This document shows positions 31,632 through 34,324 of a DNA stretch of 64,000 nucleotides, one piece after another. The notes under the pieces are model-generated. The model was not told the DNA's origin, did not search any database, and saw nothing but the letters and a program-made list of their open reading frames with translations. This stretch comes from Halodesulfovibrio sp. MK-HDV (GTDB taxonomy: Bacteria; Desulfobacterota; Desulfovibrionia; Desulfovibrionales; Desulfovibrionaceae): the NCBI RefSeq assembly GCF_009914765.1, contig NZ_WYDS01000012.1:62001-126000 (forward strand), given 5' to 3'. A program made the translations under genes and the position numbers. Position 1 is the stretch's first letter; each line of letters starts with the position of its first letter.

Positions 31632-31753
31632 AACGTGCCCCATTGTATCTATGCTGAACGATGATTTGGTGTGTTAAATGTAGTAGTTTTGTACTATAGG
31701 CTCCAAATGATTTTGGCAATACATTATCGTGAAACACTACTTTGGAGGAAATC

Positions 31754-32365
31754 ATGGGTCGAATATTTACTGCACAAAATTTTCCATTCATTCTTGCCGC
31801 GGTCTTTACAATTTTTTTTGGTGTAATGGGCATAGCTCCTGTTTCAAGAGAAGTATGGATTGCGGAAGTTATCCCTGTTGCAGCAATTTTCATTTTACTT
31901 TGTGTCACGTTTCCATTTTTTAGATTTTCAAACGTGTCATATGGCCTAATGGCGTTTTGGCTGTTTTGGCATACAATAGGCGGGCATTACACTTTTGCAG
32001 GCGTGCCTTTTGAATGGGTGACAGATCTTTTTGGGTTTGAACGTAACCACTTTGATAGGATCGGGCATTTTTCTGTAGGATTCTATGCATACCCGATTGC
32101 GGAATTGTTTATTCGTAGAAAACTCGCGGGACCGATAGTTACAACTCTTTTTGCATTATTCACCATCATGTCCATTGCGGCAGCATATGAGATTATCGAA
32201 TGGCAATATGCTGTGCTTGAAGGCGGCACAGCTGGCATTGAGTTTCTCGGAAGTCAGGGAGACATTTGGGATGCGCAGAAAGATATGCTTGCAGACACCC
32301 TTGGAGCAGTTGTTACACTGATTTTGTTCTGGGTCTTTGGTAAGCGGTGGGGAAGTCGCGGTTAG
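31754..32365 (+). CDS. DUF2238/YjdF-family membrane protein
   Basis: This protein of about 203 residues has five or six hydrophobic helices. The family segments HTIGGHYTFAGVPF, RNHFDRIGHFSVGF and AAAYEIIEWQYAV, and GDIWDAQKDMLADTLGA, are visible. The conserved His, Asp and Glu in the membrane suggest a metal site, but the function is unknown. GGAGG lies six bases before the ATG at 31754. Confidence 0.88.
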   Translation: MGRIFTAQNFPFILAAVFTIFFGVMGIAPVSREVWIAEVIPVAAIFILLCVTFPFFRFSNVSYGLMAFWLFWHTIGGHYTFAGVPFEWVTDLFGFERNHFDRIGHFSVGFYAYPIAELFIRRKLAGPIVTTLFALFTIMSIAAAYEIIEWQYAVLEGGTAGIEFLGSQGDIWDAQKDMLADTLGAVVTLILFWVFGKRWGSRG

Positions 32366-32452: not shown

Positions 32453-32488
32453 AAAAAAACGGCATGGAATCTTCCATGCCGTTTTTTT
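32453..32488. terminator. bidirectional terminator
   Basis: AACGGCATGGAA pairs with TTCCATGCCGTT, with A and T runs outside. It serves the DUF2238 gene and the permease on the other strand. Confidence 0.83.
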
Positions 32489-32549
32489 GTTTTCTATGAT
32501 GTGAATTTTGTTAACTAGCTAAGTTGACGAGTAAAGTTAATTAGCAAGA

Positions 32550-33770
32550 CTAAATAACAATGTTAAATAAGAAGCCAACAACCAGAATGCCGGAAGCAAC
32601 AATGGCTACGTAGATAGTGATCAGCTTTACGCTAAGTACTTTTCTAAGAATAACCATTTCAGGAAGACTGAGTGCTACAACAGACATCATAAATGCAAGT
32701 GCGGTACCCAGTGCAGCGCCTTTGCCTAGCAAGGCAGAGACAATAGGGATAATGCCTGCGGCACTGGCATACATCGGTACGCCGATAGCAACAGCGGCAG
32801 GGACGCTCCACCATGCATCTTTACCCATAATAGATGCCATTGCACCTTCTGGAACATAGCCGTGGATACCGGCACCGATTGCGATACCAATAACAATGTA
32901 CAACCATGTTTTTCCCAGAATATCGACAACAGAATCCCAAGCAAAATCTAAGCGGTGAGCAAAGCTAGGGTACGATGGGGATTTGTTGGTGCCATCATCA
33001 CGAATCTGACGAACCCAAGATTCCAACATGTGATCCAGTTTCATCTTGCCAAGTACCCAGCCTGCAATAACCGCAATGGTTACGCCAGTCACAAGGTACA
33101 GTGCTGCTACTTTGAATCCAAACAGACCGTACAGCAGAACTAAGGCGATTTCGTTAACCATAGGTGCGGCAATCAAAAACGAGAAGGTCACACCAAGCGG
33201 AACACCGGCTGCTACGAATCCTAAAAAGAGCGGTACAGCAGAGCAGGAGCAGAACGGCGTAATAATGCCGACACACGCTGCAATGACGTTACCAAGGGAT
33301 TCTCTGCCTGTGAGATATTTACGGCTACGTTCCGGAGTAATCCACGTACGCATAACGCCAACAGCGAAAACAACCAGACTCAGCAATAGCAGAATTTTCG
33401 GAGTATCATATAAGAAGAACCGGATGGATTCTGATAGATGGCTGCCAGCTTCAACATTTGGGATCATGCCAGTCAGGACATCCGCAATAGTCGGTAACTG
33501 AGAATAGAGCAGTCCCCACCCGAGCAAGGCAATTGTTCCTACAATGCAGTAGAAGGTAAGTGAAAAACGTGCCTTTTTACCCTGAACAGGAGCAGCACCA
33601 CATGCGCACGGAGATTCAAATGGATTTGTCGGCGCGCCATTGTCGGTTTTAGGAGCTCCGAAAGCCTGGGCAGCGAACTCGCCACCTTTATCTGGGTTTC
33701 AGCCATATATGGAGCAGGAACTTTTTTCTTCTTCTTTTTTGTTTGGAGGAGTGATTTCGAGTGGTTTCAT
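32550..33770 (-). CDS. COG0701-type permease with in-frame UGA at codon 24 (candidate selenoprotein)
   Basis: Read through the UGA, the product has 406 residues. The start at 33770 has AGGA upstream and gives MKPLEITPPNKK, then KSSCSIYG, UGA (33699-33701), NPDKGGEFAAQAFGAP, and a second Cys motif SPCACGAAP. The first membrane helix, FSLTFYCIVGTIALLGWGLL, lies upstream of the internal TTG at 33527, so that TTG would give a protein missing part of the helix. Eight or more helices follow, with the family's FCSCSAVPLFLGF. The gene sits behind an ArsR regulator with a Cys-x-Cys site, so a role in arsenic or metal export is likely. The UGA may be Sec or a nonsense mutation. Confidence 0.8.
33669..33686 (-). 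promoter_or_regulatory. SECIS-like hairpin 12 nt downstream of the in-frame UGA
   Basis: On the minus strand GGTGGCG pairs fully with CGCTGCC (seven pairs, two of them G-U) around the loop AGTT. The stem starts 12 bases after the UGA, and the apical loop has G as its second base, both in line with bacterial SECIS elements. It lies inside the coding region, where bacterial SECIS elements must lie. Confidence 0.5.
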
Positions 33771-33782
33771 GGTAGTTCCTCG

Positions 33783-34124
33783 CTAAAGAATGTTCTTAAT
33801 TTTTTTTAAGGTTAGCAGGTTTGATTGTAGGGCCGTAAACTCTTCATCTGTTTTTATAGCTTGCTGCAGCAAATCTAAAAACGTTGAAATATACATATCA
33901 GTGCTATCTGTTGCGAGGCGATAATGCGTCCATCCGCCTGCTTTGCGGCCTATGGTAAGATCGGCATCAGTACACTGTTTTAAGTGACGGGAAATTGTAG
34001 GCTGTGCAAGGCCCATAATTTCCACAATATTACACACACACAGTTCGCCCCCGAGCAATAAGCCGAGTATGCGCACGCGTGTTGGGTCTGAAAGTGCTTT
34101 TGTGATTCTAATAAAGTTGTGCAT
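33783..34124 (-). CDS. arsR: ArsR-family metalloregulator
   Basis: The 113-residue winged-helix repressor has the metal-site motif ELCVCNIVEIM, with the Cys-x-Cys that senses As(III)/Sb(III) in classical ArsR. AQPTISRHLKQC is the recognition helix. AGGAGA precedes the ATG at 34124. It lies 12 bases upstream of the permease and shares its strand, so the two form one regulated unit. Confidence 0.92.
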   Translation of the reverse strand: MHNFIRITKALSDPTRVRILGLLLGGELCVCNIVEIMGLAQPTISRHLKQCTDADLTIGRKAGGWTHYRLATDSTDMYISTFLDLLQQAIKTDEEFTALQSNLLTLKKIKNIL

Positions 34125-34136
34125 ATGTTCTCCTGA

Positions 34137-34160
34137 ATAGCCATTTAGCAATATGGCTAT
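34137..34160. promoter_or_regulatory. likely ArsR operator
   Basis: A perfect inverted repeat, ATAGCCAT - 8 bases - ATGGCTAT, lies 12 bases upstream of the arsR start. Spacing and position fit an autoregulated ArsR-family operator. Confidence 0.6.
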
Positions 34161-34324
34161 ATGAGCATGTTGTCAATACACATGCGTGAGAAATGTGCGG
34201 CTGTACAGTGATAGGCAAAGGGCGTATGAGTTGCGGCTACTGCTTTGACACACAAGTGTTTAAGCAATCGGTAACGAATTCAAATGAATAAGTATTGCGC
34301 ATTAGTTAGCACAGGAGAGAGATG

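Follow-up and report, generated by a model that had tools for sequence, protein, structure and literature searches.

We propose that the in-frame TGA at codon 24 of an ArsP_1 permease gene in Halodesulfovibrio sp. MK-HDV is recoded as selenocysteine (Sec), a conclusion drawn from comparative sequence analysis to which we assign a probability of about 85%. The gene lies in a 64,000-nucleotide stretch of contig NZ_WYDS01000012.1, referred to here as the window, and all features discussed are collected in Table 1.

Table 1. Features of the predicted selenoprotein locus (positions in the window) and of the Sec machinery (positions with a contig prefix, in the window's own genome).
Feature	Position	Strand	Basis or remark
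Permease gene, predicted Sec-containing, ArsP_1	32550..33770	-	406 codons + stop, open through one TGA
TGA codon 24, probably read as selenocysteine	33699..33701	-	TGA in 4/6 genus genomes with the gene
Ribosome-binding site GAGGA	33777..33781	-	sequence; 6 nt 5' of ATG
Predicted bacterial SECIS hairpin GGUGGCG-AGUU-CGCUGCC	33669..33686	-	7 pairs, loop AGUU, starts 12 nt after TGA
First head CSIYGU, residues 19-24 (Cys-Sec pair)	33699..33716	-	sequence
Second head CAC, juxtamembrane, residues 55-57	33600..33608	-	alignment
Core motif TPFCSCS, residues 171-177, C174 + C176	33240..33260	-	alignment
ArsR/SmtB repressor gene, ELCVC motif, directly upstream	33783..34124	-	NF033788, PF01022; ATG start
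Candidate promoter/operator block TTGACA...ATAGCCATATTGCTAAATGGCTAT upstream of ArsR	34137..34176	-	conserved in genus
Inverted repeat, A and T run flanks	32453..32489	.	by eye, between permease and convergent DUF2238 gene
SelA	C13:83100-84470		window's own genome
SelB	C17:2681-4582		window's own genome
SelD	C16:87262-88188		window's own genome (G000)
tRNA-Sec	C10:77065-77154		window's own genome

An earlier note, made from the letters of the window, had described an ATG with a ribosome site opening a frame that meets UGA at codon 24 and continues into the permease, including its first membrane helix. Both statements hold: the ATG (33768-33770, minus strand) opens 406 codons that contain a single TGA, and past this codon the frame runs uninterrupted through the first helix to the stop at 32550. 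The first in-frame ATG, GTG or TTG after codon 24 is a TTG at codon 82, which falls within the first long predicted helix (residues 71-101). Mechanical ORF calling starts the permease at this TTG and yields a truncated product of 325 amino acids; genes of this kind are easily mis-called in such a way, as truncated ORFs with a start within the first membrane helix. Among five genus genes, dN/dS is approximately 0.02-0.05 in the permease core (10 pairs; ratios taken by hand from the pairwise table) and approximately 0.07-0.23 over the 43 codons 3' of the TGA (8 of 10 pairs, dS not being computable in the other two). Purifying selection thus acts 3' of the TGA in this gene.

The seven-pair hairpin with loop AGUU that the note had placed 12 bases after the UGA was also recovered. 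Its four-nucleotide loop starts 19 nt past the TGA and carries G in the second place, and its energy is -9.3. These values lie within all of the limits for bacterial SECIS (bSECIS) elements printed in PMC13188914 (Fig 2 legend: loop of 3-9 nt, stem of 4-16 pairs, G in the first two loop places, UGA-to-loop distance of 16-37 nt, energy at or below -7.5 kcal/mol). As a chance control we took every TGA triplet on either strand of the window, 2278 in all with the codon-24 TGA included: 44 (1.9%) precede a hairpin meeting the published limits, and 3 (0.13%) have a hairpin at least as strong at exactly the same spacing. Folding of the whole 52-nt stretch is indistinguishable from that of shuffled versions (z -0.01), 89 of 200 of which fold as well, so the evidence from the hairpin lies in its geometry and conservation, not in its folding energy. 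Rfam returned 10 matches, all under the gathering score and none overlapping the hairpin.

We then compared codon 24 across a genus set of 10 genomes, including the window's own (G000). Six of these, again counting the window's, carry the permease gene with a core identity of at least 89%, and codon 24 is TGA in four (G000, G002, G008 and G009), TGT (Cys) in G001 and CAA (Gln) in G005. Of the remaining genomes, G006 and G007 (68% and 70%) encode less similar relatives whose head is CGC, the relative in G003 is at 60%, and G004 has no permease homologue at E 1e-30. The expectation that homologues would show Cys at this site, and neither Trp nor Arg, was therefore borne out in part: Cys is found in one of the six and Trp or Arg in none, but one species has Gln, which means that Sec or Cys is dispensable there in at least one species. 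The first head itself varies, reading CSIYGU in the window, PC-U in G009 and CSTQCC in G001, and the CAC head 3' of the site is kept in all six genes. In the Cys-form orthologue of G001 (L014:1501-2829, minus strand), the tail carries tandem CGC copies (PFESSCGC, PFQSSCGC and PFESPCGC), as if metal heads had multiplied in place of Sec.

Conservation of the hairpin follows the TGA. The four TGA species share the same hairpin except for one U-to-C difference that keeps the pairing, and in the genus genes without TGA the hairpin is broken, with 4 of 7 pairs left in the Gln species and 3 of 7 in the Cys species, scattered. Codon usage shows the same constraint, in that five of the six hairpin codons (+5 to +10) are identical over the four TGA species and the sixth is the U-to-C change with its pair retained. 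Over the whole gene the figure is 57 of 299 comparable codons (those where the four TGA species share an amino acid that has several codons). Only 3 of 294 six-codon segments reach 5/6 identical and each overlaps the hairpin, so constraint on synonymous sites is centred there.

The machinery that Sec insertion calls for, which the earlier note had proposed looking for, is in place: SelA, SelB, SelD and tRNA-Sec score above cut-offs in 10/10 genus genomes, and SelB does so in the genomes of loci L051 and L063, the two tested from the group described below. The SelD gene itself carries one TGA in 10/10 genus genomes.

A second group of TGA forms comprises six loci (L051, L063, L193, L199, L206 and L215). 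The L051 record bears the name Desulfobulbaceae, with L193, L199, L206 and L215 coming from genomes of its family, and the record name of L063 is Deltaproteobacteria. We inspected the heads of 189 locus rows (177 distinct in core DNA) by eye; 11 rows, or 10 distinct loci, are TGA forms, L202 being the same locus as L051 and counted once. The search pattern had flagged 20 TGA-head rows; nine (L048, L052, L088, L093, L098, L143, L173, L205 and L212) were dropped, their TGA lying upstream of the gene's own start, and none of them has a passing hairpin. The heads of the second group read GC-U, SC-U or GCG-U. In a 23-protein alignment, the Sec of all six aligns to the Cys57 column of the window protein, and Sec24 of the window sits in an extra head further upstream. 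The equivalence of Cys and Sec, which the note had proposed as a check at codon 24, is clearest in the second group, where L193 has GCGU-EKK and the sister genes L195 and L198 have GCGC-EKK, but in the window's genus the Sec is placed in the additional upstream head.

In each of the 10 distinct TGA forms, a 4-nt loop with AG as its first bases starts exactly 19 nt past the TGA. The sequence of the stem differs between the genus and the second group, with the same geometry and compensated pairing, so that SECIS prediction, another check that had been proposed, is answered by a hairpin that fits the published model and shows compensatory change over 10 TGA forms in two groups. Across these forms 92.9% of cells are paired and five of the seven pairs have changed on both sides. 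The covariation score is 0.613, compared with a shuffled mean of 0.237 (0 of 500 shuffles as high) and at most 0.159 for slid partners. Further pair types among the 10 TGA forms are no better than in shuffles (196 of 500 reach the count), and the outermost stem pair is absent in 4 of 10. It should be noted that independent paired changes are few, since the 10 sequences belong to few lineages. The bSECIS model and the permease hairpins are alike in the 4-nt loop, the G in second place, the seven-pair stem and the 19-nt distance; the model allows 16 to 37 nt, whereas the permease forms are fixed at loop AG and 19 nt.

Of the 11 rows with a TGA head, 10 reach the threshold of -7.5 kcal/mol (9 of the 10 distinct loci), as do 4 of the 97 Cys rows but none of the 9 that were dropped. 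The isolated hairpin of L206, at -6.2, falls short of it, and none of the 4 Cys-type rows with a hairpin inside the limits has it at 19 nt. In this Cys-row control, two rows were scored away from the Sec column, L010 at its CCC and L014 at a CGC copy further on; scored in that column, they retain 4 of 7 (L010) and 3 of 7 (L014) pairs, in scattered positions. In the Cys forms L195 and L198 the stem is weakened to four pairs but keeps the 19-nt distance exactly; it is apparently a fading SECIS left after a change from Sec to Cys.

We used a tree of 59 core sequences to ask how often Sec and its replacements have changed places. A minimum of 9 changes is required to explain the Sec label, and well-supported branches force 7 of these (bootstrap not settled), so Sec and non-Sec forms have interchanged repeatedly. 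Shuffled labels need 9.4 changes on average and 240 of 500 shuffles are as low; Sec is thus scattered over the tree as if at random. The six second-group TGA forms belong to one supported branch of 31 rows, 25 of which are non-TGA. In the genus, the Cys and Gln genes are nested inside a group with TGA outer members, a pattern that suits loss of Sec. Sec-to-Cys changes are described as rare in prokaryotes in PMC13188914.

The permease belongs to Pfam family PF03773 (ArsP_1), scoring 248.8 bits with a gathering cut-off of 32.3. The top NCBIfam model is NF040736 (SaoE) at 134.8 bits, followed by NF033936 (SO_0444) at 102.8 bits, both short of the scores required for membership (325 and 300, respectively). 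Five relatives (L193, L202, L063, L014 and L016) also fall far under both cut-offs, from which we conclude that the window protein belongs to a separate subfamily; no other NCBIfam model matched the permease or these relatives at the thresholds used. SaoE is part of a selenocysteine-assisted organometal system, and other Sao proteins were absent among the three window genes scanned (permease, ArsR and DUF2238). The selenoprotein table of PMC13188914 includes SaoB, SaoC, SaoL, SaoP, SaoT and SaoX but not SaoE.

Counting Sec as Cys, the computed mass of the full-length protein is 43.1 kDa. Within the protein, C174 and C176 of the core motif are invariant in all aligned proteins (23/23 and 40/40). 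In the 23-protein alignment, which was hand-chosen from loci with a head so that conservation there is not family-wide, C57 is invariant and C55 is kept in at least 90%, with TGA counted as Cys. In a wider 40-protein alignment, for which 39 of 79 usable locus references were taken, neither Cys reaches 90%, and the CxC head is therefore common but not universal. A structure model gives a confident membrane core, with residues 1-59 mostly under pLDDT 50, which places the heads on a flexible tail. Basic residues ahead of helix 1 suggest that this tail is cytoplasmic. A PDB sequence search with the permease gave no match at E 0.1, and Foldseek found no solved structure in the PDB at E 0.001 or below; ArsB, third in Foldseek at E 0.43, was not used as a structural relative.

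The upstream gene is an ArsR/SmtB family member (NF033788 78.2 bits, cut-off 55; PF01022 54.2 bits, cut-off 22), and we take the CVC of its ELCVC motif to be the arsenic(III) site of classical ArsR. The two genes are on the same strand and 12 nt apart. This arrangement agrees with the view in the earlier note that ArsR controls the permease, with control itself being suggested by this context. ArsR homologues were found at 75 of 117 loci searched (10 fetched twice, leaving 107 distinct cores): 57 on the same strand and about 600 bases or less upstream of the permease core, 11 farther upstream and 7 on the opposite strand. No homologue was found in the other 42, many of them short; these include L215, the one second-group TGA locus of six that lacks it. 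In 6/6 genus loci examined, TTGACA followed by TAGCCATATTGCTAAAT lies 5' of ArsR, and in the window and G005 this block forms a 24-base interrupted palindrome that is likely the ArsR operator. A promoter scan gave no sigma-70 match. On the other side of the permease, a DUF2238 membrane protein gene (31742-32365) is convergent with it and shares the inverted repeat. This repeat is probably a two-way terminator, judging from its form, and was not listed by a terminator scan.

The earlier note knew of no described Sec-containing member of this permease family, but one from the wider superfamily is on record. In its Table 1, the 2026 review PMC13188914 lists the SO_0444 Cu/Zn efflux transporter (NF033936, WP_014809615.1) as a GenBank-annotated selenoprotein with motif UxC, among 119 families by its own count. 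SO_0444 resembles the window protein in being a related permease (match below cut-off) that contains Sec; it differs in that its Sec site is mid-protein in L187 and L188, whereas that of the window protein is in the N-terminal tail, and in the tabulated motif, which is UxC and not CxU. As the Sec form of SO_0444 is already tabulated, we regard the window protein as representing a new selenoprotein subfamily within a superfamily that already has one. This subfamily is absent from the selenoprotein table of PMC13188914 and from the literature searched, and it may be annotated in GenBank. In the accessible text of the deep-Sep paper (PMC12013277) the words permease and transporter do not appear, and none of the new selenoproteins in its table is a permease.

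At E 1e-60, NF033936 matches are found in 87 of 395 genomes of the phylum, 15 matches having one or two TGA. In the SO_0444-type L187 and L188, the TGA would give a GCGU motif in mid-protein that is reminiscent of the GCGU heads seen at the N terminus in the ArsP_1 subfamily. The SO_0444-type frame of L186 runs at its end through two TGA in a Cys-rich TCUTKDNUFP, which could be C-terminal Sec or simply a true stop. The window's own genome also has an SO_0444 match, without TGA, at G000:C2:75121-76137.

Function in relatives points in more than one direction. Campylobacter jejuni ArsP exports methylarsenite and trivalent roxarsone, not arsenite, and the parts of that report available to us do not mention Sec (PMC6205960); what it shares with the window permease is the name of the Pfam model that the latter matches. 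A Nitratiruptor gene of the SO_0444 family is induced by cadmium and copper, according to PMC10092412. With ArsP exporting organic arsenic and an SO_0444 gene responding to cadmium and copper, the cargo cannot be chosen from homology.

Based on these results, we propose that the two-gene arsR-permease unit encodes a Sec-containing ArsP_1 permease, in which SelB and Sec-tRNA would decode UGA-24 as Sec, directed by the hairpin 12 nt downstream. The first ~60 residues would form a flexible tail with two soft-metal heads, CSIYGU and CAC. Sec24 and Cys19 may act as a high-affinity capture pair in the cytoplasm for a thiophilic cargo; the likeliest candidates are organic arsenic, trivalent arsenic or antimony, and soft metals. 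This cargo would be handed via the juxtamembrane CAC to the invariant FCSCS of the membrane core and then exported, and its presence would lead ArsR, through its CVC motif, to derepress the unit. We place the metal-relay part of this proposal, taken alone, at slightly under even odds. Sister species have Cys or Gln at the site; Sec would therefore be an upgrade of Cys that the fold does not require.

Other explanations of the TGA itself fit the data far less well. An ordinary nonsense mutation in a decaying gene, or a sequence error, could account for the truncated ORF call, but the same TGA and hairpin recur in four genus genomes, an analogous TGA is found in the second group, and selection past the TGA goes together with frozen synonymous sites at the hairpin, which makes this explanation scarcely credible. 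We also consider it very improbable that the TGA is a real stop, with translation from an internal start giving a shortened permease: the long frame can indeed be opened by the TTG at codon 82, but there is no ATG, GTG or TTG between the TGA and this codon, codon 82 is inside the first long helix, and the CAC head is preserved after the TGA in all six genus genes. Read-through of the TGA as Trp was likewise considered and rejected: neither the six genus genes nor the six second-group TGA forms and their sisters carry Trp there.

Two further explanations accept Sec insertion and differ in what Sec does. If the residue itself does little, the TGA could serve as a selenium gate, the pump being made only when selenium is plentiful; this would suit a Sec early in a disordered tail and the Gln of one orthologue. 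We hold it to be improbable, because Sec in the second group takes the place of the better conserved CxC cysteine, as a chemical role predicts, and Cys is the replacement in G001, L195 and L198. Alternatively, the Sec-Cys pair of a real selenoprotein could be a redox switch that opens and closes the pump and not a metal relay. Many selenoproteins have CxxU or UxxC, and most uncharacterised ones are deemed probable redox proteins in PMC13188914. This alternative is unlikely in our view, though it deserves serious attention: the heads vary (CGU, CU, CxxxxU) where a redox motif would be fixed, and those with Cys resemble metal-binding CxC or CC heads, neither point being decisive.

Returning to our preferred reading of a Sec that takes part in metal capture, we tentatively suggest, with somewhat less confidence than in the relay, that a selenium-tipped capture tail has evolved in one branch of arsenic-type exporters, and that lineages switch between Sec and Cys with selenium supply and metal stress. 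Such a tail would use Sec for the key Cys of its flexible cytosolic head and may bind trivalent or organic arsenic, or arsenic-selenium species, for delivery to the membrane core. According to the same review, Sec may bind metal in a few uncharacterised selenoproteins (SaoB and SaoC); here, the predicted Sec is in the disordered tail of a permease, at the Cys of a metal-type head and behind an arsenic-type repressor. Since Sec, Cys and Gln forms with intact, fading or lost SECIS elements occur in close relatives, what Sec costs and what it gains in metal transport should be open to direct testing in this family.
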